From the NCBI GenBank assembly GCA_022376515.1, contig WTXI01000062.1, positions 1 through 64,000 of the forward strand: 64,000 nucleotides of DNA. Direction: 5' to 3'. The notes below the pieces were generated by a model that ran no database searches, was not told the origin of the DNA, and saw only the letters and a program-made list of their open reading frames with translations. This DNA is from Lactifluus volemus. Lineage: Eukaryota > Basidiomycota > Agaricomycetes > Russulales > Russulaceae. A program made the position numbers and the translations under genes. Shown piece by piece: positions 4,472 through 62,950 of this stretch (positions within the stretch are counted from its first letter, which is position 1; each line of letters opens with the position of its first letter).

Positions 4472-7400
4472 ATGTCATCCACAACACAGATCTCCTCCTC
4501 CAATCATCGATTGATTCTCGACGCTTTAGACGACTATGCCAAGCAGACCGGAATAGATCTCACAAAAAATCCCTTCACCTATCAGTTCCAGAATTGCGTC
4601 TCTCCAAGAGCCATCCTTGATCTACTTGAAAAAAGGGCAATGGCCTTCAAAGAGTACCGGGATGGAAATCGGAACTTGATCAAGTGGCTTAACCCCGTAA
4701 TAAAAGTTCTCCATGGGCTTGTTGGCGTCCTTGGCCCAGCCACTAGTCTGGTACGTCAGAGGCCATCGATTCGTCTTATCTGATTGTTTTCTTACCCTAA
4801 TGTCTACAGGTGCCATTGCCACATGCAAAACCTGCAAGAGCAGTCCTTTGTGGCGTGGAGGTACTCCTCGTGGTAGGTATTTCGTTCGGTCTTCTTCCGC
4901 GTCATTGTAATATTGGAGTATATCAGACGGCTGTTGAAGTTGGCGCAAGTTATGACGCACTCGTTGACCTCTTCGAATGTGTTGCAAATTTCCTTCAACG
5001 CCTCCGTATATATACGAGGGTGCCATTCAACTCTGCAATGACCGATATAATCGTCAAGATATTGGTCGAGGTGTTGTCCGTTCTCGCCCTCGCGACTAAA
5101 CAAATCAAGCAAGGTCGATTTAGTAAGTCTTCACTTTCCCACACATTCCCAAAGTACGAACATGGCATAGAGAAATTCGCGAAGAAGCTATTGGGAGAGA
5201 GAGAGATCGAAGCTGTGCTCCGGAGGATGGACCGCCTCACTCTGGATGAGACTCGAATGACGGTAGCTCAAACGTATGAGCTCGTCCATGGTCTCGTCAA
5301 TGATATGAAAGTAGTTATGGATGGTACGCAACCCTCGTTTGGGTGGGTGTGAAACAATTGACCAAGGCTATTGTGCGAGTAGAGGGCAAGGCGTCAACCA
5401 GTCACATGCAGCAAGCTTTGGGTATGTTCACATGCGTGACCTTATCACTGCTTAGATTCTCAGGCCCTCTCCTTACCAGTTACGGCGCAAGAGACGACAG
5501 TCGAGATGAACAAGATGAATCGTCTGTTCTAGGTTAACTAATTACCGCCATTAGACTCAACATACATCCTAGGTGATCAATTGCATAGGGATATTCGAAT
5601 GTGGCTCTCCCCTCCCGATCCATCGACAAACCACAACATCGCACGCACAGCTCACCACAATGGAACTGCTGCCTGGTTTATCCAAAGTGAGACCTTCCAG
5701 AAATGGAAAACAAGGGGTTCCCTATTGTGGATACATGGTATACGTGCGTATTGTGCCCCATCTTCCATCCTCGTTCTTCTGAAAACAACATACTGCTCAT
5801 CTTCGTAGCGGGCTCAGGAAAGAGCGTGCTGTGGTATGTGTCATCCTCACATCTCTCGTCCAAGTCATTCATATTATGAAATAGTTCCAGTATCATACAA
5901 GACGCCAAAGCAAAATGCGCATCAGGATCGGCCCTGTTGGGGTATTTCTATTTTGATTTCAGGGATATTGCCAAGCAGGACGTCCACGGCCTGCTCACCT
6001 CTCTCCTCGTCCAGCTCGGCGCCAAATCCTATCCTTGCAATACCACCCTTTCTCAGCTATATTCGCAACACAATCCAGGATCCCACCCGCCTGATGATCA
6101 GGCACTTACAGAATGCCTCAAGAAAATGCTCAAGCTCCCAGGACTGCCTGATGTTTACATAATCGTGGATGGACTCGACGAATGTCCGAATACATCTGGA
6201 TTTCCGACCGCACGCGAGAGGGTGCTCGATCTCGTGGACGAGCTTGTTCACTTTCCAAATCTACGAATTTGTGTAACCAGTCGCCCGGACGCCGACATCA
6301 GAACGGCTCTGAGACCTCTAACGTCTCTCCGTGTGTCTCTTCACGATGAAAAAGGACAAGGGGAGGATATTCTTGATTACATCATCACCGTCGTCGTTTC
6401 AGATCGGACGATGCGGGAATGGAGTGCAGAGGACAAGCGACATGTATTTGATGTTCTCTCTGCGAGAGCAGGCGGAACGTGAGTCATGGACATGATCGTG
6501 TCTTACGACGGTGTCTTATCTGACTTCACCGGACAGGTTCCGCTGGGTAACTCCTCAGCTGGACACTCTGCGTCGTAGCCCTCCCGCGGCAATTCGGCGT
6601 ATTCTGGATGAGATGCCTGGGCCCTTGGACGCGACTTATGAGCGGACTTTGCTCGGGATCGAGAAGAAGAAACGAGAGTACGCTCGTCGCCTTTTCCAAT
6701 GTCTCTTGGCTGCCGTTCGCCCTCTTCGTGTTGAAGAGCTCGCAAACATTTTTGCGGTTCGATTTGAGGCCAATAAGCTTCCCCGATATTACGAAGATTG
6801 GTGCCCAGAAGACGCCCACGCTGTTTTATCCGCATGTTCAAGTTTGATCGTCACTGTGAATGTCCACGGATCGCCAGTCATCCAGTTCTCCCATATCTCT
6901 GTCCGGGAGTACTTGACATCGGATCGCCTGGCCAATGCGGGAAGGAATCTTTCCCGCTATCACGTCTCTCTCCAGTCTGCGCATACCATGCTCGCACAGG
7001 CCTCTCTCGGCATCCTACTCCATCTAGATGATCACATTGACAAGAAGATTATGGAGAAGTTCCCATTTGCTGACTACGCTGCTCGCCACTGGGTCGACCA
7101 CGCTCGGTTCGAAAACGTAGTGGATAATATCCAGGACGCGATGGAGCGTCTCTTTGACTGGTGCAAGCCACATTTTCGAACATGGATCTGGATATACGAC
7201 ATTGACCGCCCTTTCCGTGAGCACATGTCCGCGACTCACCCAACAACCGAATGGGCTACCCCGCTATACTATGCCACACTTTGTGGTTTCCGCAGCCTTG
7301 TTGAGCATCTTCTCGTCATCGATTCAGAAGATGTCAATACCGTGGGAGGCTTCTACGGTACTTGTTTGCATGCTGGGCTCGCCAAGGGAAATGTCGATAT

Positions 7401-9150
7401 CGTGCTGCTCCTCCTCAATCACGGTGCAGACGTGAATTCCCCTGGCCAGTCCGAATGGTCTCCATTACACAGCGCATTAATACGCGGACGTCGTGACCAT
7501 GTGGAGCTTTTACTCGAACACCACGCAGATGTCAACATACGGGGCAAAGATGGATCAACCCCACTCTACTGTGCGTCGGCAAAGGGAGAGCTTGAGATCG
7601 TACAAGCATTACTACGGCATGGTGCAGATGCAGGTCGTCGTAGCAACGGCGGCTTGACCCCATTGCATGCAGCATCGCGAAGTGGATACCTGGTTATCGT
7701 ACGGGAGCTACTTCGCCACAGTGCAGATATAGATGTACAAGAAAATAACTTTTGGGCCTTACTGCACCTTGCATCACGTTTTGGGCATCTCGATGTCGTA
7801 GAATTTCTCATCCATTCCGGTGCAGCCGTGGACACGAAAAAATGGAAGGGAAAAACTGCCTTGTTTCGTGCATGTGGCAGGGACGGGAGTGTCGAGGTTG
7901 TACGCTTCTTGATCGATCACGGTGCAGATCCCAATTCCCAGGACAACAAGGGAGATTTTCCCTTCCATGAAGCATTATCCAACGGGCATCTCGACATCAT
8001 TTGTTTACTACTGGACTTTATCCCAGACATCGACGTGCGTGGCGAGGGTGGAAGAACGCCATTGATGCTAGCATCGTGGAACGGAATGCTCGAGGCTTCA
8101 CGCTTCTTGATTGAGAATGGTGCAGACGTGAACTCTACTTCTGTCCATGGCTGGACTGCGTCACACTTTGCATCCCAAGGTGGACATTCCGATGTTCTCC
8201 TACTTTTGCTTGACCATGGCGCAGATATAAATCGTCGGACAAACGACCTCGAAACGCCACTGCATGTCGCATCAGCGAAGGGGCACCTCGATGTTACCAA
8301 ATTGCTGATTGAACGTGGTGCAGCTATTGATAAGCTGAATGTGGCTCAAAAAACTCCATTGCACTTGGCAGCTCGCAACGGAGAACTCGAGCTTGCCCGC
8401 TTACTAATCCGATGTGGCTCGAATCTGAACGCAGAAGCCAGAGACGGTCGGACCCCGTTGCATACAGCGGCAAAATACGGGCATCTTGACATCGTGGAAC
8501 TGTTACTGGACTCGGGCGGAGATGTCAACGCGAGGGATAGCAAAAACAAGACTGCCTTAGATCTGGCGCTTGACAATGGGAAGCTCAATATTGCCAGGCT
8601 CCTTGCCGAGCGTATGGGACGCGTAGATTCTCTGCGCCGCATTGAAGCTGCAGATGCGCTTCGCAGAGAACAGGGGACTTCATTATTTTCCGCATTGGAA
8701 TCGAAGGACCTTGATCTCTTACAGTCATTAGTTGACCGCGGCGCGGATGTCAATGGGCGAGATAGAGATGACTTGTCACCCTTGTACGTGGCCTCACAGT
8801 ATGCCTGGCTGGAAGGCGCCAAATTTTTGGCCAAGCACGGTGCGAGAGTAGATTCCCGGGACAACACTGGATGGACTCCATTGCATTGGGCATCATCACA
8901 GTCCGGACATTTGAAAGTCGTCCGGTTGTTGCTTGACCATGGCGCCGACGTGAACGCGACAGATCCGAACCATTGGACGTCGTTGCATCTCGCATCAGCT
9001 AACGGTTATCGTGAGACCGTTAAGCTGCTACTTGAACGAGGTGCAGATATCCATGTTCTCAATGAAGATGGCCGGACAGCATCTCAAGAAGCATCACGAC
9101 ATGGACTTCGAGGGATTGTAAAGTTATTGTCGGAGTATGGCTATAACTGA
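4472..9150 (+). CDS. NLR1: Goodbye-NACHT-ankyrin STAND receptor
   Basis: Predicted cytosolic signal-transduction NTPase of the fungal NLR type. Exons: 4472-4750, 4810-4872, 4927-5122, 5171-5323, 5380-5421, 5480-5521, 5573-5743, 5809-5833, 5885-6478, 6537-9150; 1392 aa. Residues about 10-250 match the fungal STAND N-terminal Goodbye domain, ending in the WLSPPDPSTNHN linker typical before a NACHT. The NACHT has Walker A GIPGSGKS (about 314-321, built from exons 7 and 8), Walker B VYIIVDGLDE (about 414-423) and a TSRP motif. A winged-helix-like linker (LDATYERTLLGIE, VRPLRVEELA) follows. About 19 ankyrin repeats fill residues 760 to the end, the predicted ligand-sensing part, with a short linker after repeat 14. 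It lacks two residues (Leu-Asp) in ELVHLDLPN. Donor of intron 6 (C|GTCTGT) is unusual but is conserved in all six copies, and it gives normal 51-58 bp introns. Confidence 0.88.
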
Positions 9151-10034: not shown

Positions 10035-11490
10035 CATGATCGACGCAATTCTTCCTCCCTGGTGAAGTTCAACAGAATCAGTGCTACTCCTGTGGGATCC
10101 AATGGCAAACATACCAATACTCGAACATGGGTTGTACGCCAACAAATAAACACGCGCAAGTGACGAAGAGAAAGCGAATTCCTGAGGTACCTCGATCAAC
10201 GAAAATAGCGTTAGAAAGATCTCTGAGTGAGACTTACCGCTCCAGCTACCAATCAGTTCATGCATAAAGTACTGCGCACCATCCACACCGAGGACAAAAT
10301 TGATGAGATTTGGGCCCATCCATAGCAAGATCATGGTGTTGAAGACACCACCGGCCGCATATACATGGCGCTCCCACCACGTTTCCCCAAACTACATCTT
10401 AGAAAAAGAAATGGGGTGTCACTTCTAGATATTAACCACGCCCCGCAGAGTTGAAAGGCACACGAACTAAGGATGCAGGTATCACTTTCCTTGCCCTGAC
10501 ATCGGGCAAAATGACAACCGCGGCGAGTCAACCCCATGCCAAGAGTCTCAGGCTGACGCCATGCCAGAGGGCAACGAAGGTGAATGCAAGGATGTTGGTC
10601 GCAGCGAGCCGATGCGTGCCACCAAATGGAATGTAGATGTAGCGTACAAATCCAAAGGCTATAATATCGACGCTATGGGCGGCAGAAGCCGAGGGGTGGG
10701 TAGTTGTTTTCCTTGCAGCGTACCATGTTTTCCGGTGGGTCCTTTCCATCCGCCAGAGCCCACAGAAGAAAGGAGCACTAGGGGAGGAGTAGCTGAAAAT
10801 CGAAGCATGGTCAATGTAGATGTGGATCATGGCTTGTCGATAGGAAGACATACCTTGAGCTAGATGAAGATGAGGTTCCAGAAGCCAACCATGGACTCGG
10901 ATAACTTTGAGGTGCTCATACCGCTCTACGCGGATCCTTGATGGCGACGAAGTGCATCACATAAATGAGAATCTCCATCGTAAGAAGTGAGATGAGGAAG
11001 TGCAGCACATATAGCACCGTCTCCCGGGGCGTGATATCTTTGGGATGTGTGAGCCTAATGAAAAAGAGACAAGCGCCATCAGCGCCATGCATGTCGAAAA
11101 AGAATGAGATGACCCTCGCCCACCTACTACATAAAGTCATTGAAGGTGGTTATGGTCTCGCGATGTAGAGCGAGGGATAGGGTGCGTAGGCAAGATAGAT
11201 TTGAAAGGTGTACGTGGCACGCGGATGAAACACGGCGGCGCGCTTCTTGTGTGCCACTGTGTTGCCCGGCTGCAGTGAGTGAGTAGATGATCCCGACATA
11301 CATAAAAAGGAGAATATGTGATGCCGGGCGCATGACGATGTTGAGGCTAACATGCCAGCACGGGTATAACAGACCCCTACACTCATCCTGTGCAGGAACG
11401 ACTTTCGACGTACAACTTGAAGAAGGTTGTGCGTTGAAAAGCCACGTGACAGGTACACACTCCCGGGCCGGTGCTTTCTGTCTCGAGAAA
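10035..11490 (-). pseudogene. GUP1-like MBOAT O-acyltransferase remnant (U1)
   Basis: Reads as the C-terminal two-thirds of a GUP1-type membrane-bound O-acyltransferase; intact GUP1 proteins act at the ER in GPI-anchor lipid remodelling. Recognisable blocks on the minus strand, 5' to 3': WLFNAQ and a YPCWHVSLN-like block near 11350-11450, ITTFNDFM near 11127, a DITPRETVLYVLHF block near 11020, MVGFWNLIFI near 10870, ALADG near 10760, VRYIYIPFGGTHR near 10630, FTFVALWHG with the MBOAT histidine near 10580, and FLFVTCACLFVGVQPMFEYW near 10160. It is dead: TAG at 10860-10862 where GUP1 proteins have Trp, another TAG just after the next acceptor, a frameshift before VRYIYIP, and TGA after LLAWG. 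The N-terminal third is absent and replaced by the next TF copy. Confidence 0.75.
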
Positions 11491-11495
11491 GGCCT

Positions 11496-13080
11496 TCCAA
11501 GTTCCAACTCGAGCTTGCCGCCTCTTGCCGCCCTTCATTTGGGTCCTAATCCATACCCTCTCTCGTTTGTTGGCAAGAACGGCCCTGGACTCCATTCGAC
11601 CGCTATTCACCAAACTCCCCCCCCTGCTGCCAATCCTCTTTACGCAAATCATCAGTTCACCTTTCCCCCGCCTCTGCATCATATGATAACTCTCTTGACT
11701 ATTCTGCCCGCTCAGGCGGAGCTTCTTTCCACAGGTGTGATCCTATCGGACCGTGCTCTACCACTCCTGGCCATATATCAAGATACGCAGGTTCCACATG
11801 ATCACAGAACCGTTGCACGCTATGCTCAATCTTACAACTTGTGCGGTGACCCCCAAGACTATCCTGTTCCGCTGTCACCTATTGGCGTCGACTATGGCCA
11901 TAATATCGACAACAGGTACGCTCCATTTTTGACTCTCCGTGCCGCCCGCCTGTGGATTGACTCGCTATCCGGAAGTCCGTGTCATACTCGAACAATCATC
12001 CGGGATACACAAATGGATACAATCACCACCCTCTTACGTTGAGCTTTGACACACAGAGCCAACAAAGATGCGGATCAAGCGCAAGCGAGACAGGTAGCAC
12101 CACGAGCCGCAGCCAACGTTCTTTGGCTACCTCTTCGAGCGTGCATCTCCCCTTGCCAATGGATCACCGGCAATCGTTCTCCCGCCCCGCAACGGCCGAC
12201 GGCGCGGTCGCGGACAGTTCGTCTGCCTTTGGACCCATGTCTCTTGACGAATCTGAAGTTCTCGCTGGTTTCGGTGAGGGTGCACCCTTCTTTGACAACT
12301 CGATTACCCACGGGAGTGGCTCCGTTCATCATAATCCAACATGGGGCGATGGCCCTACACCTCGTGCGAGCCCGTGCGATGCTCCCCGTGCCACTGGCAA
12401 GAAGAGCTCTCAGCAGCAGCAACAGTGAGGGTAACCGCAAGGACAAGCGGGAAATGGACCTGCCATGACGCCAGCCAGTCTCACAGAGCTGAAGGAAATG
12501 GGATCAATACATGGTAACATCCCTCTCTGGCTCTGGCCAACCGACCGCGGTACACGAGCATCTCCCAAATGGGAGCCCCACGTGCGCGCGGGCTTACACG
12601 AGTGTCAAGACGCCTTCTGCTGGAACTGCCCGTTGGAATGATCGCATGCATGGCCAGAACGGCAGTCAGCCTCAGCCACAGAGCGGTGCAGGGTTAACAA
12701 TGTACCGTACGGAGGACAAGCTGGATACTCGCGGGCACATAACCATACGGATGACCTGCGTCGCTATGAGCAAGCTGTGCTCGCACGGCGCGCACCACTC
12801 ACGTTTCACCTTGCACCTCGCCGGCCCGGTAATACTACGACCACCAGCATCTGCCAACGCTACCATCTTACCCCCTTCTACCCCAGCTTCAGATAAGGGT
12901 GCTCTGTCGAGCCCTGCGGGAAGCGGTAGTAGCAGCGACAGGAGTATTCACGAGTGACCACTGGACTAGCTCGAGGGGCTCTCCAGTATCTGGCCTTGGC
13001 GGCAGCGGATGGCTCAAGGTTGACGAGACGGATGGGCTTCCCAAGTGGACGTGCGGGTCTCGTCGCGCTGTAGGATTAAA
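11496..13080 (+). pseudogene. Transcription factor pseudogene 2 (zinc fingers deleted)
   Basis: Starts inside exon 4 of the TF at AGTTCCAACTCGAGC and runs to the equivalent of the stop at GGATTAA. Both C2H2 fingers and the Zn2Cys6 cluster are gone, so no DNA-binding function remains. Exon 5-like sequence is also disrupted, with a TGA after the glutamine codons at about 12428 and several deletions, for example near 12590 and 12990. The exon 4/5 donor site has changed from AACAAG/GTGCG to AACAG/GTACG, which breaks the phase seen in unit 1. Confidence 0.85.
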
Positions 13081-13533
13081 CTGGTCTCTCCGAGGAATGA
13101 GAGATATGAGATCATGGGCGAGCAGTCACGATATATGGTTGACTTTATGAGTAGTTCTATTCTCTTTACCTTTTATCTAGTTTCTTGACAACAGGTATAA
13201 TCTGCGTGGGTCTTATTGCATTGAGCCTGTTTCCTATCAATTTCTTGTTACGTCAAACACGATGTTCTTGTCACGACTCACGACTTTACTACAGTACCCT
13301 CTTTGATGGATTTTTTTTTTTTTTGCCTCAATGATGACAAACATTTCACGATTGATGATACGCCGTTTTTCCCCCTATAGCTCTCCTCCTCTGTTTTCCC
13401 GTGCTTTTGTTGTACTGTAACAAGTGACAAGTTTAAGTGTGCCAACCTCCCAGTGAGATTTTATTTGCTCGAACCAAACAAGCTTTGACGTGGCCCGCAT
13501 ATAATTTACTCATTTACAGTCCTCCCGTCTGTC
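13081..13533 (+). other. TF to HSP10 spacer, unit 2
   Basis: Diverged copy of 2583-3072 with the same poly-T run (near 13310) and GTGAGATTTTATTTG block; the CACGTG palindrome has become CCCAGTG. I see nothing else in it. Confidence 0.4.
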
Positions 13534-14030
13534 ATGTTGATGTGCACTCGTTCATTTTGTCCTTTCTAACTCATGTTGCAAAAAGTCTGCCTAGGCTATC
13601 TTCAAGTCGATCAGGTCTCTCGTCCCCCTCCTCGACCGCGTCCTCGTCCAACTGAAACCGTACTTTTTTTTTTTGGGCTCCTCCCTCTCTCTCATGACAC
13701 ACACACAATATATATTAGAAAACTGCTACTGGAATCTTCCTACCGACTTCTGCCACGTCGAGTCCACTTTCCAGAAGCTACCGTGATCGCGGTCGGACCT
13801 GGTGCACCGGATAAAGAAGGTCGGATCGTGCCCACGTTGGTCAAGGCGGGTGATAGGGTGTTGTTACCTGGTTGGGGAGGGAATGCGATCAAAGTAGGCG
13901 AATATGTGCGTTTTCTTTTTCTTTTTTAATTCTTTTTCCCTTCCACTCTTTCAACTCGAGGATGATGATGGCCATATAGGAATATCATCTGTTCAAGGAT
14001 TCGGAGATTTTGGCAAAGATTGAAGAGTAG
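13534..14030 (+). pseudogene. HSP10 pseudogene 2
   Basis: The ATG at 13534 is no longer followed by a GT donor (ATGTTGATG instead of ATGGTACG), and exon 2 has lost 10 bp (CGCTTCAAAC in unit 1), which shifts the frame after VLVQ. Exons 3 and 4 are still open and end EYHLFKDSEILAKIEE, so decay appears recent. Confidence 0.85.
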
Positions 14031-14859
14031 AGAAGACCCTTCTTGTTAGATGTCGACACGCTCATACTTATTTGTATGAGCGAGCGATGAAAAAAGATAA
14101 AACGTTTGTCGTGAAATTCGTATTTCTTTCATGGGTCTTTCATGTTTCCTTTCAATCCCCTCCCCTCCCCCCTCCCATCCCTACCTTCCTAACCCCCATT
14201 GCATATATTTACCGCATAGCAATCTATAGCATCACCACTCATCATGCTTTCTTCGTTGACAGTGCGCCGGCATTCCACCAAGCAGTTGGCAAAGCCTATC
14301 TTCGTCTTGGTTATCCATGCCGACAGTAAGTGAAAATATACGAGTGGTGAAAAAACCGAGCCGGGTCACCCCACATCAGACCCTCCAGGACTTGCATTTA
14401 GGAAAGTCCGCGGGACGTTAAGACTTTGAGGCGCATTCGAATGAGCACGTTTTTACCAAACCCCGTTGCCACTGCCTACCCACACTGGTCCTTGTTCGCA
14501 GTCTCGTGCGCGTGCATAGTTAGAAGTGAGGTCCCTTGAGATCAAGTGGTTTGGTTTTGTCTGCCGTCATCGTCGTGGTATGTGTGGGGTTGTCCATGGA
14601 TGCTCTCTGGCAGCATGAACCTGAATCCGCCTGGTACATTCCCTAAATGAGCTGCACGTGGAATGGCTCCTCCATGTAGCGCCCAGTTGGAGGTTTCCGA
14701 CGGACCCTCCGATCGCACGCTTTTCAGATCATGCAGCATAGCACCTCAAGTCTGTCAGTTATTAAGTTAAACTTGACGCCGTTCCGCTCCATACCGACTT
14801 GGGAGTCATGGCCTGAACAGGCACGGCGCTTATCTCCATGCCCACACGCCACTACTTAT
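14031..14859 (+). promoter_or_regulatory. Upstream region of NLR2, left part
   Basis: Counterpart of 3592-4471. It keeps the GCATATATTTACCGCAT block near 14203 and CAGTTATTAAGTTAAA near 14756. No gene is supported. Confidence 0.35.
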
Positions 14860-15142
14860 CAGCCATCACCTGACCCATCAAGCATCAGATACGAATCCAA
14901 TGGGGGCATGGGAGGAAAAATTCACATCACGTGTATATTACATGTACATAGCTACAAGCAAGTCTAGTCCATTCTTGGGTCTGCGACTCCGCGAGCATCG
15001 TCAAGAACATGTAACGCTCACCTTTTTGGAAGGAGGAGTATCTCACATTGCCTGATGTATCAGGCGTTGATGTGATGATTTTGGGCATCAGATGCTGAGT
15101 TTCATCAGATGCCGGGTCAGACCTGGCATCATGACAACCCTG
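14860..15142. mobile_element. 283-bp insertion with CAG...CTG ends upstream of NLR2 (MITE candidate)
   Basis: Present only in unit 2, between CACGCCACTAC and TATTTCTCACC, which are nearly adjacent in units 3-5. It begins CAGCC and ends CCCTG. Both ends carry a related CTGACCC...GCATC(A/T)GAT block in inverted orientation, and the interior has a perfect hairpin, GCCTGAT-GT-ATCAGGC, near 15050. A clear target duplication is not visible; TTA flanks both sides. It has no coding capacity. It lies about 50 bp before the NLR2 start codon, so it replaces most of the proximal promoter. Confidence 0.55.
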
Positions 15143-15193
15143 TTAATATTTCTCACCTAGTTTTCCACCACCTCCTACAACACCCTTGTCTTC

Positions 15194-45775: not shown

Positions 45776-45799
45776 ACAGGGAGGGACAGGGAAAGGCCT

Positions 45800-48156: not shown

Positions 48157-48560
48157 ACTGGTGTCTCCGAGTAATGAGAGATATGAGATCATGGGCGAGC
48201 AGTCACGATATATGGTTGACTTAATGAGTCGTGCTATTCTCTTTTCCTTCTATCTAGTTCCTTTATTTATTTCTTGTTATGTTAAACACGATGTTCTCGT
48301 CACGGCCTTCTTCATCTCGAGTTTCTTTTTTTTGGCCTGAACGATGATGAACATTTCACGATCGATGATCAGCGGTTTTTCTCCTATAGCTCCTCTGTTT
48401 TCCCGCGCTTTTGTTGTACTGTACAAAGTGACAAGTTTATGTATACCAACATACAATGCCTACATAACTTAGTAAATCCCACGTGAGATTTTATTTGCTC
48501 GAACCAAACAAGATTGCTACGAAACAGATCGTGGCACGCATATAATTACTCGCGTCTGTC
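48157..48560 (+). other. TF to HSP10 spacer, unit 5
   Basis: Copy of 2583-3072 with deletions; keeps CACGTGAGATTTTATTTG near 48480. Nothing else is seen. Confidence 0.4.
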
Positions 48561-49069
48561 ATGTTATGTTGATGTGCACTCGTTCATTTTGTCCTTTTTG
48601 ACCCATGTTGCAAAAGGGCTGCCCAGGCTACCTTGTCGATCAGGTCTCTCGTCCCTCTCCTCGACCGCGTCCTCATCCAACGTTTCAAACCTGAAACCGT
48701 ACTTTTTTTTTTGTCTTTGGGCTCCTCCCTCTCTCATGAAACACACAATATATATTAGAAAACGGCTACTGGAATCGTCCTCCCGACTTCTGCCACGTCG
48801 AGTCCACTTCCAGAAGCTACCGTGATCGCGGTCGGACCTGGCGCACCGGATAAAGAAGGTCGGATCGTGCCGGGTGATAGAGTTTGTTACCTGGTTGGGG
48901 AGGGAATGCGATCAAAGTAGGGGAAGATGTGCGTTTTCTTTTCTTTTCTTTTCTTTTTTTCTTTTCCTTTTTTTAAATCCTCCTTCCCTCAACCTCGAGG
49001 CTGATGATGGTCATATAGGAATATCATGTGTTCAAGGATTCGGAGATTTTGGCAAAGATTGAAGAGTAG
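48561..49069 (+). pseudogene. HSP10 pseudogene 5
   Basis: No donor after the ATG. Exon 2 lost one codon (ATLSIRS). Exon 3 lost 15 bp after GRIV and one further base in the GTATTG of unit 1, so the frame is shifted before the GWGG strand. Exon 4 is intact. Confidence 0.85.
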
Positions 49070-49946
49070 AGAGGACCCTCTTTTATAGACGTCAACACGC
49101 TCATACATTTTTGTATGAGCGAGCGATGGAAAAAAGACAAAAGACAACATGTTTGTCGTGAAATTCGTATTTATTTCATGGGTCTTTAATGTGTCCTTTC
49201 AATCCCCTCCCCCCTCCCGTCCCTATCTTCCTAACCCCCATGGCATATATTTACCGCATAGCAATCTATAGCATCACCACTCATCATACTTTCTTCGTTG
49301 ACAGTGCGTCGGCATTCTACTAAGCAGCTGGCATAGCCTATCTTCGTCTTGGTTATCCACGCCGACAGTAAGTGAAAGTATACGAGTGGTGCCTAAGCAG
49401 CCCGGGTCACCCCACATCAGACCCTCCAGGACTTGCATTTAGGAAAGTCCGCGGGACGTTAAGACCTTGAGGCGCATTCGAATGAGCACGTTATTACCGA
49501 ACCCCGTTGTCACTGCCTACCTACACTGGTCCTTGTTCGCAGTCTCGCGCGCGCGCATAGTTAGAAGTGAGGTCCTTTGAGATCAAGTGGTTTGGTTTTG
49601 TCTGCCGTCATCGCCGTGGTGTGTGTGGGGTTGTCCATGCATGCCCTCTGGCAGCATGAACCTGAATCCGCCTGGGTACATTCCCTATGAGCTGCACGTG
49701 GTATGGCTTCTCCATGTAGCGCCCAGTTGGAGGTTTCCGGCACCCTCCGATCGCACGCTTTTCAGATCATGCAGCATATCACCTCAAGCCTGTCAGTTAT
49801 TAAGTTCAACTTGACGCCGTTCCGATTCTCCGTACTGACTTGGGAGCCAGGGCCTGAACAGGCACGGCCCTTATCTCCATGCCCACACGCCACTACTATA
49901 ATTTCTCGTCTAGTTTTCCACCACCTCCTACAACACCCTTGTCTTC
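49070..49946 (+). promoter_or_regulatory. Upstream region of NLR5
   Basis: Counterpart of 3592-4471 without insertions; has a CGCGCGCGCG run near 49546 and CAGTTATTAAGTTCAA near 49793. No gene is supported. Confidence 0.35.
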
Positions 49947-52900
49947 ATGTCATCCACAACACAGATTTCGTCCTCCAACCATCGATTGATTCTCGATACT
50001 TTAGATGACTATGCTAGGCAGACCGGAATAGATCTCACCAAAAATCCCTTCACCTATCAGTTCCAGAATTGCGTCTCTCCAAGGGCCATCCTTGATCTAC
50101 TTGAAGGAAGGGCAATGGCCTTCAAAGAGTACCGGGATGGAAATCGGAAGTTGATCAAGTGGCTTAACCCCATAGTACAAGTTCTCCATGGGTTTGTTGG
50201 CGTCCTTGGTCCAGCCACCAGTCTGGTACGTCAGAGACCACAGGTTCGTCTTATCTCAATGGTTTCTTACCCTTATGTCTACAGGTGCCATCGCCACATG
50301 CGAAACCTGCAAGAGCAATCCTTTGTGGCGTGGAGGTACTCCTCGTGGTAGGTATTTCGTTCGGTCTTCTTCCGCGTCATTGTAATATTGGAGTATATCA
50401 GACGGCTGTTGAAGTTCGGGCAAGTTATGACTTGCTCGTTGACCTCTTCGAATGTGTCGGAAATTTCCTTCAACGCCTCCGTATTTATACCAGGGTGCCA
50501 TTCAACTCTGCAATGACCGATATCATCGTCAAGATATTGGTCGAAGTGTTGTCCGTTCTCGCCCTGGCGACTAAACAAATCAAGCAAGGTCGACTTAGTA
50601 AGTCTTGACTTTCCCACACATTCCCAAAGTACGAACATGGCATAGAGAAATTCGCGAAGAAGCTATTAGGAGAGAGAGATATCGAGGCTGTGCTGCGGAG
50701 GATGGACCGCCTCACTCTGGATGAGACTCGAATGACGGTAGCTCAAACGTATGAGCTCGTCCATGGTCTCGTCGATGATATGAAAGTCGTCATGGACGGT
50801 ACGCAACCCTCGTTTGGGTGACTGAAACAATTGACCAAGGCTGTTGTGCGAGTAGACGGCAAGGCGTCAACAGATCGTATGCAGCAAGCTTTGGGTATGT
50901 TCACATGCGTGATCTTATCACTGCTTAGACTCTCAGGCCCTTTCCTTACCAGTTACGACGCATGAGACGACAATCGAGATGAACAAGATGAAACGTCTGT
51001 TCCACGTTAACTAATAACCGCCATTAGACTCAACATACATCCTAGGTGACCAATTGCAGAAGGATATCCGAATGTGGCTCACCCCTCCCGATCCATCGAC
51101 AAACCACAACATCGCACGCACAGCTCACCACAATGGAACTGCCGCGTGGTTTATCCAAAGTGAGACCTTCCAGAAATGGAAAACATCGGGTTCCCTGTTG
51201 TGGATACATGGTATACGTGCGTATTGTGTCCCATCTTCCACCCTCGTTTTTCTGAAAGTAACACGCTGCTCGTCTTCGCAGCGGGCTCAGGAAAGAGTGT
51301 GCTGTGGTATGTATCATCCTCACATCACTCGTCTGCTCATTCATATTATCAAATAGTTCCACTATCATACAACATACCAAAGCAAAATTCGATTCAGGAT
51401 TGGCCCTGTTGGGGTATTTCTATTTTGATTTCGGGGATATTGCCAAGCAGGACGTCCGCGGCCTGCTCACCTCTCTCCTCGTCCAGCTCAGCGCCAAATC
51501 AGATCCTTGCAATAACATCCTTTCTCAGTTGTATTCGCAACACAATCCAGGATCCCACCCGCCTGATGATCAGGCACTTACAGAATGCCTCAAGCAAATG
51601 CTCAAGCTCCCAGGACTGCCTGATGTTTACATAATCGTGGATGGACTCGACGAATGTCCGAATACATCTGGATTTCCGACCGCACGCGAGAGGGTGCTCG
51701 ATCTCGTGGACGAGCTTGTTCACTTAGACCTTCCAAATTTACGAATCTGTGTAACCAGTCGCCCGGAGGCCGACATTCTAACGGCTCTGAGACCTCTGAC
51801 ATCTCTTCGTGTGTCCCTTCATGATGAAAAGGGACAAGGGCAGGATATTTTCGATTACATCCGTACGGTCGTCCATTCAGATCGGACGATGCGGGGATGG
51901 AGTGCAGAGGACAAGCAACATGTAATTGATGTTCTCTCTGCGAGAGCAGGCGGAACGTAAGTCATGGACATGATCGTGTCTTGCGACGGTGTCTTATCTG
52001 ACTTCGCCGGACAGGTTCCGCTGGGTATTTTCTCAGCTGGACACTCTGCGTCGTAGTCCTCCCGCGGCAATTCGACGTATTCTGGATGAGCTGCCTGGTG
52101 CCTTGGACGCGACTTATGAGCGGACTTTGCTCGGGATTGAGAAGAAGAAACGAGAATACGCTCGTCGCCTGTTCCAATGTCTCTTGGCTGCCGTTCGCCC
52201 TCTTCGGGTTGAAGAGCTCGCGAACGTTTTTGCGGTTCGATTTGTCGCCAATAAGCTTCCCCGATATTACGAAGATTGGCGCCTAGAAGACGCCCATGCT
52301 GTTTTATCCGCATGTTCAAGTTTGATCGTCACTGTTAATGTCGACGGATCGCCAATCATTCAGTTCTCCCATTTCTCTGTCCGGGAGTACTTGACATCGG
52401 ATCGCCTGGCCAATGCGGGAAAGAATCTTTCCCGCTATCACGTCTCTCTCCAGTCTGCGCATACCATGCTCGCACAGGCCTCTCTCAGCATCCTACTCCA
52501 TCTAGATGATCATATTGACAAGAAGCGTATGGAGAAGTTCCCATTTGCGAACTACGCTGCTCGCCACTGGGTTGACCACGCTCGGTTCGACAACGTAGTG
52601 GAGAATATCCAGGACGCGATGGAGCGTCTCTCTGACCGGGCCAAGCCGCATTTTCGAACATGGGTCTGGATATACAATACTGACCTCCCTTTCCGTGAAC
52701 ACATGTCCGCGTCACGCCCAACACCACCGCCGGCTACCCCGCTATACTATGCCACACTTTGTGGCTTCCGCAGCCTTGTTGAACGTCTTCTCGTCATCGA
52801 TTCCGGAGATGTCAATACTGTGGGAGGCTACTACGGTAGTTGTTTGCATGCTGGGCTTGCCAAGGGACATGTCGATATCGTGCTGCTACTCCTCGACCAC

Positions 52901-54625
52901 GGTGCAGACGTGAATTCCCCTGGCCTGTTCGGAAGGTCTCCATTACACGACGCATCAGAACGCGGACGTCGTGACCATGTGGAGCTATTACTCGAACACC
53001 ACGCAGATGTCAACATACGGGACAAACATGGATCAACCCCACTCTACGTTGCGTCGGTTTCAGGAGAGCTTGAGATCGTAGAGGAATTACTACGGCATGG
53101 TGCAGATGCAGACTGTCGTGACAACGACGGCTTGACCCCATTGTATACAGCATCGCAAAGTGGATCTCTTTCTATCGTGCGGAAGCTAGTTCGCCACGGT
53201 GCAGATATAGATATACAAGACCATCGCCTTTGGACCTTGCTGCACACTGCATCAAGATTTGGGCATTTCGATGTCGTAGAATTTCTCATCCAATCCGGTG
53301 CAGCCGTGGACACGAAAACACGGGAGGGAGAGACTGCCTTATTTCTTGGATGTGGCAGCGACGGGAGTGTCGAGGTTGTACGCTTCTTGATCGATCACGG
53401 TGCAGATCCCAATTCCCAGGACAACTCGGGAGATATCCCCTTCCATGGAGCATCATTCAACGGGCAACTCGACATCATTTGTTTACTACTGGACCTCATT
53501 CCAGACATCGACGTGCGTGGCGAGGATCAAAGAACGCCATTGATGCTGGCATCGTACAACGGAATGCTCGAGGCTTCACGCTTCTTGATCGAGAATGGCG
53601 CAGACGTGAACTCTACTGCTGACCAAGACTGGACCGCATCACACTTTGCATCAGCCACCGGACATTCCGATATTCTGCTACTTTTGCTTGACCATGGCGC
53701 AAACATAAATGGTCGGACAAAAGACCTCGAAACGCCACTGCATGCCGCATCATGGAAGGGGCACTTCGATGTTACCAAATTGCTGATTGAGCGTGGTGCA
53801 ACTATTGATAACCGGACTGTGGCTCAAAGAACGCCACTGCACTGTGCAGTTCATTACGGAGAACTCGAGATTGCCCGCTTACTGATCCGATGTGGCTCGA
53901 ATCTGAATGCCAAAGATAGCAGCGGTCGGACGCCGTTGCATACAGCGGCAGAATACGGTCATCTGGACATCGCAGAACTGTTACTAGAATCGGGCGGAGA
54001 TGTCAACGTGAGGGATAACGAAAATAAGACTGCCTTAGTCTTGGCGCTTGACCATGGGAAGCTCAATATTTCCAGGTTCCTTGCCGAGTGCATGGGAAGC
54101 GTAGATTCTCTACGCCGCATTGAAGACGCAGATGCGCTTAGCAGAGATCAGGGGACTTCATTATTTTCCGCATTGGATGCTAAGGACCTTGATCTCTTAG
54201 GGCCATTAGTTACCGGCGGCGCGGATGTCAATGAGCGGGATGTATATGGCCAGTCACCCTTGACAGTGGCCTCAAGGGATGGATGGCTGGAAGGCGCCAA
54301 GTTTTTGGTCAAGCACGGTGCGAGAGTAGATCCCCAGGACAACAGTGGATGGACTCCATTGCATCGTGCATCATCGTCCGGACATTTGGAAGTCGTCCGG
54401 TTGTTGCTTGACCATGGCGCCGACGTGAATGCGACAAAGCAGGACCATTGGAGGTCGTTGCATCTCGCATCAGCTAGCGGTTACCGTGAGATCGTAAAGC
54501 TGCTACTTGAACGAGGTGCAGATATCCATGTTCTCAATAACGATGGCCGGACACCGTCTCAAGAAGCATCACGAATTGGACGTCGAGGGATTGTAAAGTT
54601 ATTGTCGGAGTATGGCTATAACTGA
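49947..54625 (+). CDS. NLR5: Goodbye-NACHT-ankyrin STAND receptor
   Basis: Exons: 49947-50225, 50285-50347, 50402-50597, 50646-50798, 50853-50894, 50953-50994, 51046-51216, 51282-51306, 51357-51956, 52015-54625; 1393 aa. Walker A GIPGSGKS, Walker B VYIIVDGLDE. Exon 9 begins CSTIIQHTKAKFDS where other copies have CSSIIQDAKAK. The ankyrin domain has its own set of substitutions at the hairpin positions (for example DNRTVAQRTPLHCAVHYG in repeat 12). Intron 3 contains TGA, and intron 2 shifts nothing, so splicing is confirmed for at least intron 3. It ends YGYN like NLR1. Confidence 0.88.
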
Positions 54626-55490: not shown

Positions 55491-56343
55491 CCTAACATCG
55501 TCGTTGTATCTCTCGACGCAATTCTTCCTCCCTCGTTAAGTTCAACAGAATCAGCGCTACTTCTGCGGGATCCAATGGCAAACATACCAATACTCGAACA
55601 TGGGTTGTACACCAGCGAATAAACACGCGCATGGGACGAAGAGAAAGCGAATTCCTGGGGTAACTCGATCAACTAAAACAGCATTAGAAATATCTCCGAG
55701 TGAGACATACCGCTCCAGCTACCAATCAGTTCATGCATAAAGTACTGCGTACCATCCACACTGAAGACAAAATTGATGAGATTTGGGCCCATCCATAGCA
55801 AGATCATGGTTCTGAAGATACCACCGGCCGCATATACGTGGCGGTCCCACCACGTTTCCCCAAACTACATCAAGAAAAAGAAATGGGGTGTTGCTTCTAG
55901 ATATTAACCACGCACCGCAGAGTTGAAAGGCACACAAACCAAGGATGCAGGCATCACTTTCCTTGCCCTGACATCGGGCAAAATGACAATCGCAGCGAGT
56001 CAACCCCATGCCAAGAGTCTCAGGCTGACGCCATGCCAGAGGGAAACGAAGGTGAATACAGGATGTTGGTCGCAGCGAGCCGATGGGTGCCACCAAGTGG
56101 AATGTAGATGTAGCGTACAAATCCAAAGGTTATAAGATCGATACTATGGGTGCCAGAAGCCGAGGGGTGGATAGTTGTTTTCCATGCAACGTACCATGTT
56201 TCCCGGTGGGTCCATTCCATCCGCCAGACCCCACTGAAGAAAGGAGCACCAGGGAAGGAGCAGCTGAAATCGATGCACAGTCAATGTAGATGTAGATCAT
56301 GGCTCGTCGATAGTAAGACATACCTTGAGCTAGATGAAGATGG
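55491..56343 (-). pseudogene. GUP1-like remnant, unit 5 (5' part cut away)
   Basis: Retains the C-terminal half, including GGTHRLAATN and the MFEYW-type ending, and the array-wide TAG at 56330-56332, beyond which the copy is truncated by the unit 5/6 junction. An early frameshift also disrupts the FTFVALWH block near 56050. Confidence 0.73.
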
Positions 56344-56497
56344 GTTCCCGGCGTTTTTTCCCCTATGGCTCTCCTCTGTTTTCCCGTGCTTTTGTTGTAT
56401 TGTAGTTTATGTGTACCAACCTTGATACCAACCGGCCAGCCTACATCACTTAGTAAATGCCACGTGAGATTTTATTTGCTCGAACCAAACAAGATTA

Positions 56498-56885: not shown

Positions 56886-56919
56886 CGAAACATTCATTTA
56901 CAGTACTCGCGTCTGTCGT

Positions 56920-57410
56920 CTTATGTTGATGTCCACTCGTTCATATTGTCCTTTTTGATCCATGTTGCAAAAAGGCCGCCCAGGCTACCTTCAAGTCGAT
57001 CGGGTCTCTCGTCCCCCTCCTCGACCGCGTCCTCGTCCAACTCTTCAAACCTGAAACCGTACGTGTTTTTTTTTTCTATTTCTTCATGACACACACACTA
57101 CACAATATATAGAAAATTGCCACTGGAATCTTCTTCCTCCCGACTTCTGCCACGTCGACTCCACTCCAGAAGCCACCGTGATCGCGGTCGGACCTGGCGC
57201 ACCAGATAAAGAAGGTCGGATCGTGCCCACGTCGGTCAAGGCGGGTGATATGCTGTTGTTACCTGGTTGGGGAGGGAGTGCGATCAAAGTAGGCGAGGAT
57301 GTGCGTTTATTTGTTTTTTCCCCTTCACACACACTCTGATGATGGTGATGGTCATATAGGAATATCATTTGTTCAAGGGTTCGGAGCTTTCGGAAAAGAT
57401 TGAAGAGCAG
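56920..57410 (+). pseudogene. HSP10 pseudogene 6
   Basis: The start region reads GTCGTCTTATG with no ATG/GT junction. Exon 2 is open. Exon 3 has lost one base at CCACTCCAG (unit 1 CCACTTCCAG), which shifts into a TGA within a few codons, and gained three bases at ATCTTCTTCC. The terminal codon TAG has become CAG. Confidence 0.85.
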
Positions 57411-58263
57411 AAAGGACCCTTTTTTTAGATGTCGACGCGCTCGTAGTTTTCTTGTATGAGTGAGCGAGGAAACAAAAGGACAAAAGTTTGTCTTGAAATT
57501 CGTAGCTCCCTTCCTACGCCTACTCCCCCATTGCATATATTTACCGCATAGCAACCTATAGCATCACCATTCGTCATGCTTTCTTCGCTGATAGCCCGCG
57601 GCCGTCTTTGAGTTCCAACAAACAGCTGGCGTAGCCTATGGCAAGGGTCGGCACACTGGCGTGCTAAGTTACTTTGATCTTCGTAGTCTGCGAGTGAGTG
57701 AAAAAACCGAGCAGCCCTTAAGCAGCCTGGGTCACACCAAGGCAGACCCTCCAGGACTTGAATTGAGCCCAGTCCAGGGGATACGACTTAGACTTGGAGA
57801 TGCACGCGAATGAGCACTTCATTCCCGAACCCTCCCTACGAGAAGCGCACATGGTCTAGACATGGAAGTAAAGTTAGAAGTGAGGTCAAGTAGTTGAGTT
57901 TTGTCTGCCGTCATCGCCGTGGTGTGAGTGGGAGGGTTCGTCCATGATGCTCTCTGGCAAGCATGAGCCTGAATCCGCCTCTTCGTGGGAGCGGACATTC
58001 CCCTAATAAGCTGCACGTGAAATGGCGCCTCCGTGTGATTTCATCCCCCACAGTTGGAGGTTTCTGGCACCCTTCGGTCGCATTTTTCACGCCTTTCAAA
58101 CCATGCAGTAAAGCACCTCAGATTCTCCGTGCTGCCTTGGGGAGCCATGGCATGAGTAGGCACGGCGCTTATCTAGTGTCAAAGCATGACCGCGGCGCCA
58201 CGCCACCATCATTCCTCCGAGTCATTGATCAGTTCCACCTTCTCATACGACACTCTTGTCTTC
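57411..58263 (+). promoter_or_regulatory. Upstream region of NLR6
   Basis: The most diverged upstream region in the array. The GCATATATTTACCGCAT block is kept near 57532, but the CAGTTATTAAG block found in the other five units is missing from its usual place near 58110. Its promoter may therefore behave differently. Confidence 0.35.
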
Positions 58264-61200
58264 ATGTCATCCTCAACAAAGATCTCCTCGTCCAATCATC
58301 GATTGATTCTCGACGCTTTAGACGACTATGCCAGGCAGACCGGAATAGATCTCACCAAAAATCCCTTTACCTATCAGTTCCATAACTGCGTCTCTCCTCA
58401 AGCTATCCTTGATCTACTTGAAGAAAGGGCAATGGCCTTCAAAGATTACCGGGATGGAAATCGGAATTTGATCAAGTGGCTTAGCCCCGTAGTACATGTT
58501 CTACATGGGTTTGCTGGAGTCCTTGGCCCAGCCACCAGTCTGGTACGCCAGAGCCTATCGGTTCGTCTTATCTCATTGTATACCCTTATGTCTACAGGTA
58601 TTTAAACCTGCAAATGCAATCTTTTGTGGCGTGGACGTACTTCTCATGGTAGGTAATTCTTTCGGTTTGCTTCCGTATCATTTGTAACATTTGAGTATAT
58701 CAGACGGCTATTCAAGTTCGCGCAAGTTATGACGCACTCGTTGACCTCTTCGAATGTGTCGAAAATTTCCTTAAACGCCTCCAGATTTATACCAAGGTCC
58801 CACTCAACTCTGCAATGACCGATATCATCGTCAAGATATTGCTCGAGGTGTTGTCCGTTCTAGCCCTGGCGACTAAACAAATAAAGCAGGGTCGATTTAG
58901 TAAGTCTTCAGTTTCCTATGAATTCCCAAAATACGAACATGGCACAGAGAAGTTCGGGAAGAAACTCTTGGGAGAGAAAGAGATCGAGGCCGTGCTCCAG
59001 AGATTGGACCGCCTCACTCTGGATGAGGCTCTAATGACGGTAGCTCAAACGTTTGAGGTCGTCCATGGCCTTGTCAATAATGTGAAAGTGGTCATGGACG
59101 GTACGCAACCCTAGTTTGAGTGGCCGTGAAACAATTGAACAGCTCTATTGTGCGAGTAGACGGCAAGGCGTCAACAGATCAGATACAGCAAGCTTTGGGT
59201 ATGTTCACATGCGTGACCTTATCACTGCTTACATTCTCAGGCTCTCTCCTTACCAGTTACGATGCAAGAGACGACAATCGAGATAAACAAGATGAAACGT
59301 CTGTTCCACGTTCAAGTTAATTAATAACCGCCATTTGACTCAACATTCATCATAGGTAATCAATTGCAGAGGGATATTCGAATCTGGCTCTCCCCTCCCG
59401 ATCCATCGACAAACCACAACATCGCACGTACAGCTCACCATGATGGAACTGCTGCCTGGTTTATCCAAAGTGAGACCTTCCAGAAATGGAAAACATCGGG
59501 TTCCCTTTTATGCATACATGGTATACGTGCGTATGCGCCCCATCTTCCATCGTTTTTCTTCTTCTGATAACAACATGATGCTCGTCTTCGCAGCGGGCTC
59601 AGGAAAGAGTGTACTGTGGTACGTGTCATCCTCACATCTCTCGTCCACGTCATTCGTATTATGAAATAGTTCCAGTATCATTCAAGATGCCAAAGCAAAA
59701 TTCGATTCAGGATTGGCCCTGTTGGGGTATTTCTATTTTGATTTCAGGGATATTGCCAAGCAGGACGTCCGCGGCCTGCTTACCTCTCTCCTTGGCCAGC
59801 TCAGTGCCAAATCTGATCCTTGCAATGCAACCCTTTCTCAGCTGTATTCGCAATACAACGCAGGATCCCACCAGCCTGATGATCAGGCACTTACAGAATG
59901 CCTCAAGCAAATGCTCAAGCTCCCAGGACTGCCTGATATCTACATAATCGTGGATGGACTCGACGAATGTCCAAATACATCTGGATTTCCGACCGCACGC
60001 GAGAGGGTGCTCGATCTCGTGGACGAGCTTGTTCACTTAGACCTTCCAAATTTACGAGTGTGTGTAACCAGTCGCCCGGAGGCCGACATCCGGACGGTTC
60101 TGGAACCTCTGACGTCTCTTCGGGTATCTCTTCATGATGAAACCGGACAAGGGCAGGATATTCTCGATTACATCCGCACGGTTGTCCATTCAGATCGGAG
60201 GATGCAGGGATGGAGAGCAGAGGACAAGCAACATGTGATTGATGTTCTCTCTGCGAGAGCAGGCGGAATGTAAGTCGTGGACATGATCGTGTCTTGCGAC
60301 GGTGTCTTATCTGACTTCGCCGGACAGGTTCCGCTGGGTGTTTTGTCAGCTGGACACTCTTCGTCGTAGTCCTCCCGCGGCAATTCGTCGTACTCTGAAT
60401 GAGCTGCCTGAGACCTTGGACGCGACTTATGAGCGGACTTTACTCGGGATCGAGAGGGAGAAACGAGAATACGTTCATCGCCTGCTCCAATGTCTCTTGG
60501 TTGCCGTTCGCCCTCTTCGGGTTGAAGAGCTCGCGAACGTTTTTGGGATTCAATTTGACGCCAATAAGCTTCCCCGGTATTACGAAGATTGGCGCCCAGA
60601 AGACGCCCAAGCTATTTTATCCGCATGTTCAAGTTTGATCGTCACTGTTGATGTCCACGGATTGCCAATCATCCAGTTCTCCCATTTCTCTGTCCGGGAA
60701 TTCTTGACATCGGGTCGCCTGGCCAATGCGGAAGAGAATCTTTCTCGCTATCACGTCGCTCTCCGGTCTGCGCATACAATTCTCGCACAGGCCTCTCTCA
60801 GCATCCTACTCCATCTAGATGATCACATTGACAAGAAGAGTATAGAGAAGTTCCCATTCGCAGAATACGCTGCTCGCCACTGGGTCGACCACGCTCGGTT
60901 CGAAAATGTAGTGGAGAATATCCAGGACGCGATGGAGCATCTTTTTGACCGGGACAAGCCACACTTTGCGACATGGGTCTGGATATGCGATATTGACCGC
61001 CCTTTCCGCGAGCACATGTCCGCGTCACGCCCAACACTACCGGAGGCTACCCCCCTATACTATGCCACACTTTGTGGCTTCTGCAGCCTTGTTGAGCATC
61101 TTCTCGTCATCAATTCCGGAGATGTAAATACCGTGGGAGGCTACTACGGTACTTGTTTGCACGCTGGGCTCGCCAAGGGAAATGTCGATATCATGCTGCT

Positions 61201-62950
61201 CCTCCTCAACCACGGTGCAGACGTGAATTCCCTTGACGGGTCCGTACAGTCCCCATTACACATAGCATCAGAAAGCGGACGTCGTGACCATGTGGAACTA
61301 TTACTCGAACACCACGCACTTGTCAATATACCGGACAAAGATCGATCAACCCCACTCTATCTTGCGTCGGAAAGAGGAGAGCTTGAGATCGTACAAGCAT
61401 TACTACGGCATGATGCAGATCCAGACTGTCATGACAACGACGGCTTGACCCCATTGCATGCAGCGTCGCAACGTGGATCTCTGGCTGTCATGCGGAAGCT
61501 ACTTGGCTACGGTGCAGATATGGATGTACAAAGCCATCGCCTTTGGACGTTACTGCACACTGCATCGTTTTTTGGGCATCTCAATGTCGTAGAATTTCTC
61601 ATCCAACACGGCGCAGCCGTAGACACGAAGACACGGGAGGGAGAGACTGCCTTATATCTTGCATGTTGCAGCGACGGGAGTTTCGAAGTTGCACGGTTCT
61701 TGATCGATCACGGTGCAGATCCCAATTCCCAGGACAACACTGGAGATTCCCCCTTCCATAAAGCATCAGTCTACGGGCATCTCGACATCCCCCGTTTACT
61801 ACTGGACCTTATACCAAACGTCGACGTTCGTGGCGAAAATCAATCGACGGCATTGATGCAGGCATCCTCCAACGGAATGCTCGAGGCTTCACGCTTCTTG
61901 ATCGAGAATGGTGCAGACGTGAACTCGAACGCTGCTGGTGACGAGGGCATGACTGCATCACACTATGCATCAGCCTCTGGACATTTCAATATTCTGCTAC
62001 TTTTGCTTGACAATGGCGCAGATATAAATGGCCAGACAGAACACCTCGAAACGCCACTGCATATCGCATCAGCGGCAGGGCACCTCCATGTTACCAAATT
62101 GCTGGTTGAGCGTGGTGCAGCTATTGATAAGCGGGGGGTGGATCAACAAACGCCATTGCACATGGCAGCTTATGGTGGAGAACTCGAGATCGCTCGTTTA
62201 CTAATCCGATGTGGCTCGAATCTGAACGCAGAAGGCAGCGACGGTCAGACGCCGTTGCATATAGCGGCTCTATTCGGGCATCTGGACATTGTGGAACTGT
62301 TACTGGAGTCGGGCGGAGATATCAACGTGAGGGATAACAACAACAAGACTCCCTTAGACCTGGCGCTTGAGAATAGGAAGCTCAATATTTCCAGGCTCCT
62401 TTCCGAGCGCATGGGAAGCGTAAATTCTCTGCGCTTGATTGAAGACGCAGATGCGCATAACAGAGATCAGGGGACTTCATTATTTCTCGCATCGGCATTG
62501 GAAAACCTTGATCTCTTACAGTTCTTAGTTGACGGCGGTGCGGATGTCAATGGGCGGGATGTATATGGCCGGTCACCCTTGAACATAGTCTCGAGATATG
62601 GATGGCTGGAAGGCGCCAAGTTTTTGGTCAAGCACGGATCCAACGTAAATTCCCGGGACAACGATGGATGGGCTCCATTGCATCGTGCATCACAATTCTA
62701 CCATTTCGATGTCGTCCAGATCTTGCTTGACCATGGAGCCGATGTGAATGCGAAAATGCAAAACCTTTGGACGTCGTTGCATTTCGCATCAGCTAAGGGT
62801 TACCATGAGATCGTCAGGTTGCTACTCGATCGAGGTGCAGATATCCGTGCTCTCAATGACGAAGGCCGGACACCAGCTCAAGAAGCATCACGAATTGGAC
62901 GGCGAGGGATTGTAAAGTTATTGTCAGAGTATGGTAGAGGTAGAAAGTAG
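58264..62950 (+). CDS. NLR6: Goodbye-NACHT-ankyrin STAND receptor (mosaic copy)
   Basis: Exons: 58264-58542, 58598-58648, 58704-58899, 58948-59100, 59157-59198, 59257-59298, 59356-59526, 59594-59618, 59670-60269, 60328-62950; 1393 aa. The N-terminal half is like NLR3 (short exon 2, LSPVVHVLHGFAGVLGPATS, VFCQLDTLRR, ETLDATYE), while the C-terminus (YGRGRK) and the 3' flank are like NLR4. Walker A is GIPGSGKS and Walker B YIIVDGLDE. The start MSSSTKISSS differs slightly from the MSSTTQISSS of the others. Ankyrin repeat 10 is two residues longer (SNAAGDEGMTASHYAS). No stop or frame break in any exon. Confidence 0.87.

Follow-up and report, generated by a model that had tools for sequence, protein, structure and literature searches.

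Open NLR genes among decayed neighbours, and signs of positive selection on their predicted ankyrin face, in a tandem array of the milk-cap Lactifluus volemus

The stretch of Lactifluus volemus DNA studied here - referred to as the window - comprises bases 1-64000 of contig WTXI01000062.1 (C579 below; 191,626 bp) and lies at one end of that contig in a 62.4-Mb assembly of 628 contigs (GCA_022376515.1). It holds six tandem genes for NOD-like receptors (NLRs) of the Goodbye-NACHT-ankyrin type, which are all on the plus strand, start at 4472, 15194, 27540, 38796, 49947 and 58264, share their exon boundaries and are 85-91% identical to each other, with private insertions in addition. Each belongs to a head-to-tail repeated unit of transcription factor (TF), HSP10, NLR and MBOAT genes (TF-HSP10-NLR-MBOAT). 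The left edge of the array has an open TF and an open HSP10, the right edge an apparently intact MBOAT, and the internal copies of these passenger genes have decayed. By exon model, translation and (for copy 1) domain search, NLR copies 1 (4472..9150), 4 (38796..43443) and 6 (58264..62950) are open and so is copy 3 (27540..32325), which contains a miniature inverted-repeat transposable element (MITE) within its ankyrin region; copy 5 (49947..54625) has an open frame only without exon 6 and copy 2 (15194..20147), open in the same nine-exon reading, has lost its intron-5 acceptor and its stop. A Pfam scan of the full protein, done for copy 1 in its ten-exon form, found Goodbye (PF17109) at 44.2 bits (cut-off 24.8) as well as NPHP3_N (131.4 bits), NACHT (46 bits) and ankyrin repeats, likewise above Pfam cut-offs, and all six genes have the P-loop G-x-PGSGKS and the IVDGLDEC motif. 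The three parts expected of a fungal NLR in the STAND class are found here: an N-terminal effector domain (Goodbye, copy 1), a NACHT/NB-ARC domain with P-loop and Walker B (domains in copy 1, motifs in all six) and C-terminal superstructure-forming repeats (ankyrin repeats in a predicted solenoid).

A preliminary description of the locus had reported that one ten-exon model gives an uninterrupted frame in all six NLRs. While the shared exon boundaries hold, this reading, which we tried first, fails in copy 2 (no AG acceptor of intron 5) and in copy 5, where the exon model check revealed a TGA in exon 6 (50963..50965, plus strand). A nine-exon reading that skips exon 6 is open in all six, and skipping keeps the frame because exon 6 consists of 69 nt between equal phases. 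In copy 2, an AG farther upstream of the lost acceptor would also hold the frame, adding four codons. In the copy 7 clade (C579:75618, C249b, C164a) exon 6 is two bases longer and GC replaces the GT donor, which argues that exon 6 may be dispensable. The public model of copy 3 (P0003, BGW80DRAFT_1447974), which is identical to copy 3 over the first 786 of 794 residues, includes exon 6; a pattern for the exon 6 region matched 36 of the 120 listed relative proteins, and a loose peptide pattern matched P0003 and P0083. Moreover, a 5-nt deletion has removed the stop of copy 2, whose reading continues for roughly 90 codons.

As for length changes, the observation that these come in whole codons was borne out: relative to copy 1, copies 2-6 carry 24 exon indels of 3, 6, 9, 12, 21 or 108 nt, all multiples of three, and not one exon indel of frameshift size, the count running to ten bases before the end of exon 10 and so excluding the stop. 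The length change of 36 codons, found in copy 3, however, is the MITE, which sequence comparison places with its 42-nt inverted arms in frame inside the ankyrin domain (30399..30498). An identical MITE sequence occurs on contig C105 and weaker relatives lie on C412, C200, C258, C168, C614, C1, C46 and C229. A genome search also identified a 291-bp dispersed repeat (14857..15147) that ends 46 bp upstream of the copy 2 start and has at least 43 matches in the genome. In DNA neighbouring the NLRs, gaps of non-triplet length number 925 per 57,000 pooled aligned sites, a rate that would imply about 67 per NLR pair; because of the history common to the pooled pairs and of homopolymers in the noncoding DNA, the TF coding regions with 12-23 each are the fairer yardstick. 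This conservation of frame is the strongest single argument that we have.

The passengers behave differently from the receptors. TF copy 1 (138..2582, plus strand), a C2H2 plus Zn2Cys6 protein according to a domain search of its N-terminus, is open across five exons (714 residues), whereas the other four, as previously claimed, are broken by frameshift-size indels and lost starts. Such indels number 14 in copy 2 (11502..13085), 12 in copy 3 (22077..24274), 23 in copy 4 (34774..36973) and 16 in copy 5 (45820..48163), all on the plus strand. Similarly, HSP10 (Cpn10) copy 1 (3073..3591) is open in alignment and domain search, and an alignment read by eye confirmed that all five other plus-strand copies are broken: copy 2 (13558..14126) by a lost start, a stop codon and a 10-bp deletion, copy 3 (24739..25256) by a lost start/donor as its only clear lesion, copy 4 (37408..37990) by a lost start and a TAG, copy 5 (48590..49172) by a lost start with 1-bp and 15-bp deletions, and copy 6 (56947..57504) by a lost start, a 1-bp deletion and a lost stop. 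The start with its first donor (ATG|GTACGT) is absent from all of copies 2-6, and the genome's ten Cpn10 matches are confined to the array contigs C579, C603 and C105. Homology searches showed the third passenger, a minus-strand MBOAT gene, to be broken after NLR 1 (10236..10919), NLR 3 (33371..34051), NLR 4 (44384..45099) and NLR 5 (55709..56269) and reduced to a broken remnant after NLR 2 (21147..21215); the copy after NLR 6 starts at 63751..64000 and extends past the window, its stops being read in locus L080. In five units (1-4 and 6, the latter read past the window end) the MBOAT copy has one and the same exon stop, while in unit 5 the match starts after the shared stop codon and other stops are present. 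The MBOAT at C579:79.3-82 kb, with long open exons that lack the shared stop, appears intact. Because lesions are shared among copies, HSP10 and MBOAT were probably dead already in the unit that multiplied. Apart from the repeated genes, the roughly 1.5 kb leading up to NLR copy 3, a stretch without homologue elsewhere in the array units, contains a minus-strand open frame of 285 residues (26207-27064) that has no Pfam match.

The ratio of nonsynonymous to synonymous rates (dN/dS, or omega in codon models), which the preliminary description had named as one of its checks, was indecisive by simple counting (0.57 for the six NLRs, 0.64 for dead TF, 0.44 for dead HSP10). With the dead neighbours likewise below 1, we dropped whole-gene counting as a test. 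Codon models that include transition bias separated the NLRs from the dead neighbours better. For the NLRs these were fitted to the six window copies, with recombination outside the model and with the transition ratio of the omega = 1 fits set to three values close to the optimum instead of being left free; the codon alignment comprises nine loci, C603a, C603b, C105a, C579:75618, C249a and C105b having been set aside. Omega was 0.78 for the whole NLR, 0.47 for the pre-ankyrin part (twice the log-likelihood difference, 2dL, from omega = 1 being 71) and 1.16 for the whole ankyrin region (2dL 3.7), with Goodbye at 0.44, the linker at 0.30, NACHT at 0.42 and the middle part at 0.64. The dead TF copies gave 0.89 (2dL 1.25), which is compatible with 1. 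A model without transition bias yielded a whole-gene omega of 0.635 and, for the ankyrin repeats outside the binding face, a 2dL of 11.8 as opposed to 2.4 in the fuller model. Together, frame conservation and the pre-ankyrin omega of 0.47 back the earlier proposal that selection has kept the receptors open.

For the ankyrin region we used 14 repeats registered by hand out of the 17 found by profile in copy 1, and set the face beforehand as repeat positions 2, 3, 5, 13, 14 and 33, those randomised in designed ankyrin repeat proteins (DARPins). Amino-acid changes concentrate at positions 1, 2, 3, 5, 10, 13 and 14, and positions 6-8, 11, 12 and 15-31 are quiet; the excess on the face has a permutation p of 5e-5. 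By counting, dN/dS of the face is 1.36 (bootstrap 1.04-1.84), with a nonsynonymous rate of 0.32 versus a synonymous rate of 0.15-0.24, and the codon model (with the same proviso about recombination) puts omega at 2.63 (2dL 24.9), above 1 at the concave face. A set with positions 1 and 10 and without 33 reached 3.43, but as its choice was guided by the data we place no weight on it. A structure predicted without alignment for the copy 1 ankyrin domain (mean predicted local distance difference test, pLDDT, 83.7; predicted template modelling score, pTM, 0.62) has its first helix at positions 7-14 and its second at 17-25, in agreement with the face positions, and top Foldseek matches include ankyrin and DARPin structures. 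Between copies the repeat register is kept in 418 of 420 cases; within one copy the repeats (14 in each of six copies) are on average 36% alike and at most 64%, below the >85% within-gene likeness that defines NLRs of high internal repeat conservation. Outside the window, the pair C249b/C164a displays a face excess as well (60 nonsynonymous and 12 synonymous changes; ratio 1.23 versus 0.46 in the framework). Among 31 pairs of linked paralogs compared in other Russulaceae, the face differs more in all 23 usable ones (ten of them from one Lactarius indigo contig), a comparison of amino-acid counts that alone is no proof of selection.

Might the face, then, be merely free to change, with selection doing no more than keeping the frames? 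Such relaxed constraint would fit an omega of 1.16 (2dL 3.7 against 1) in the whole ankyrin region, and a face that is most variable in other species too, where amino acids only were counted. Relaxation does not, however, exceed 1, and both the face omega of 2.63 and a nonsynonymous rate above the synonymous one (0.32 versus 0.15-0.24) go beyond it, so we regard this explanation as unlikely, though it is the one that fares best among the alternatives.

A second alternative, that units were misjoined or wrongly multiplied in assembly, has to be seen against the related loci elsewhere. The genome has 15 NLR copies at least 86% identical (seven on C579, three on C105, two each on C603 and C249, one on C164), of which the six window copies, C105c, C249b and C164a are open, as is C105b over the part read. 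Four loci (C603a, C603b, C105a, C579:75618) lie in error-rich stretches with dense one-sided single-base deletions relative to their closest copies, which suggests poor consensus, real decay there being possible as well; gene models should not be trusted where this probably poor consensus occurs, in the first 20 kb or so of C603, beyond about 56 kb of C105 and at about 75-79 kb of C579. In a search for the Rpb2 family, two equal full hits (C1 and C95) were obtained and the others occurred once; both nuclei are therefore partly represented. Left and right array flanks (the latter probed at C579:88 kb) are each found on two contigs and array ends occur in three versions, so haplotypes are not fully phased. 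In the roughly 24 kb between array members at C105:20-43 kb, no close NLR, HSP10 or TF match was found. A partly uncollapsed two-haplotype assembly, three versions of array ends against two of the unique flanks, and four copies full of one-sided deletions would all suit an artefact. Yet divergence among the window copies amounts to 9-15%, with private insertions in addition, and copies 2 and 3 have counterparts of 98.6 and 98.8% identity on the separate contig C105, which makes an artefact quite improbable to our minds. Least credible of all is a young array in which NLRs are open for lack of time to break: the copies are still 85-91% identical, but neighbours in the same units hold many frameshifts, NLR mean dS (0.18) is about that of dead TF (pS 0.17), and recent conversion of the NLRs would need a dS lower than that of the neighbours.

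With frame conservation and the codon models lending support to the notion of a receptor-diversification locus put forward in the preliminary description, we consider it likely that the window holds a birth-and-death array of fungal NLRs whose chassis is conserved, whose ankyrin face diversifies and whose copies may serve as sensors of different ligands. In this scheme, the TF-HSP10-NLR-MBOAT unit would have been copied head to tail repeatedly, with internal units retaining only the NLR while their passengers decay. Purifying selection would hold the Goodbye, linker and NACHT parts, and positive selection would alter residues lining the solenoid's predicted concave side, at positions 2, 3 and 5 in the loop and 13 and 14 in the inner helix of each repeat, probably also at 1 and 10. 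Judging from the family, the ankyrin face of each copy may sense a different ligand, upon which the NACHT ATPase would drive assembly and the Goodbye domain would relay a defence or cell-death signal. What the sequence shows is the array itself, frames kept open, passengers in decay and the pattern of selection; the sensing of ligands, the assembly and the signalling are inferred.

Several observations weigh against this birth-and-death scheme. The flaws described above may leave copies 2, 3 and 5, or some of them, weak, dead or non-functional; C249a has a late frameshift; and the unit between copies 6 and 7, just past the window (L082, C579:66490-70400), has lost its NLR, keeping a short ankyrin remnant, so the array is able to lose NLRs. 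The claim that neighbours duplicated together act as a neutral control stands for TF, whose omega is compatible with 1, but not for HSP10: its dead copies have an omega of 0.53 (2dL 5.1, 106 codons), for which short length or shared functional history may be responsible, making it a poor neutral yardstick, and some of the lesions are shared, so that five broken copies out of five are not five independent losses. Given the HSP10 value, part of the apparent NLR constraint may also stem from bias or shared functional history. The framework of the repeats (omega 0.84, 2dL 2.4) does not differ significantly from 1, and the close pair of copy 3 and C105c has no face excess (2 nonsynonymous changes, 1 synonymous). 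Finally, sliding windows reveal that nearest partner copies shift along the gene; ancestry may be mosaic, and since recombination can inflate tests of positive selection, the signal is possibly inflated.

Two side observations concern NLRs and their surroundings. Locus L082 has an open reading frame (ORF) set at 813-2147 and 2463-3230, namely an ATPase-like ORF beside the ankyrin remnant, with a crinkler-like N-terminus that scores 18.5 bits and so misses the cut-off of 24.6, plus a 256-residue ORF of no clear family. In an NPHP3_N profile search of the fungus' own genome, the 150 candidates scored out of 1154 were all above or near the cut-off, so that the genome's NLR set is very large, and much of it is clustered (e.g. 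C112, C323, C523, C24).

A further and more tentative idea, which we hold to be possible without favouring it, is that the array works as a germline binder library in which ligand space is explored through point substitutions that leave the repeats of a long ankyrin face in register, the signalling chassis staying constant. It could also be, with similar reservation, that this happens in the manner of plant NLR clusters with their leucine-rich repeats (LRRs) rather than by repeat shuffling as in Podospora. The nuclei may differ in copy number or content, doubling the repertoire of the dikaryon, and the same mode may operate across Russulaceae. Fungal NLRs are numerous and, to our knowledge, their ligands are mostly not known. 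The locus offers a natural experiment in that three passenger genes were duplicated along with the receptors, the passengers thereby providing a local neutral standard, and it indicates exact candidate specificity residues, those in the loop and inner helix of every repeat. In an ectomycorrhizal lineage it shows receptors diversifying with no shuffling of their repeats, and if copies bind different ligands, swaps of ankyrin faces would be a direct route to what mushrooms sense.

How does the array compare with known systems? Plant NLR clusters consist of tandem paralogs with a conserved ATPase part, a diversifying ligand face and birth and death of copies, but here ankyrin repeats stand in for LRRs and Goodbye for TIR/CC domains, and the host is a fungus. 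As in DARPins, the hypervariable positions largely match those that engineers randomise; unlike DARPins, this is a natural and longer solenoid within a receptor, in which position 10 is strongly variable and position 33 little. The literature searched, which does not extend to most subscription journals, yielded no description of this locus and no study of Lactifluus volemus NLRs. HET-E and HET-D of Podospora (PMC12222747) are likewise fungal NLRs with a hypervariable repeat face, but their WD40 repeats are shuffled by unequal crossing-over and they have a known role in incompatibility, whereas the array here is known from its genes alone. Closest are the ankyrin-repeat NLRs under diversifying selection, such as Podospora anserina Pa_3_8560, of Dyrka et al. 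2014 (PMC4986451), in which positively selected sites map to inner helices and loop of the concave ankyrin face and repeats are >85% alike within a gene, their number varying by recombination. The Lactifluus genes share with these NLRs the combination of NACHT and ankyrin domains, a Goodbye domain, common at the N-terminus, and selection on the concave face, of which the architecture and the selection are already known for fungal NLRs (PMC4986451). What is different here, judged from the genes, is that repeats 36% alike and in register have neither high internal conservation nor any shuffling that we could see; change takes the form of point substitution between tandem paralogs, beside pseudogenes that were duplicated along with them.

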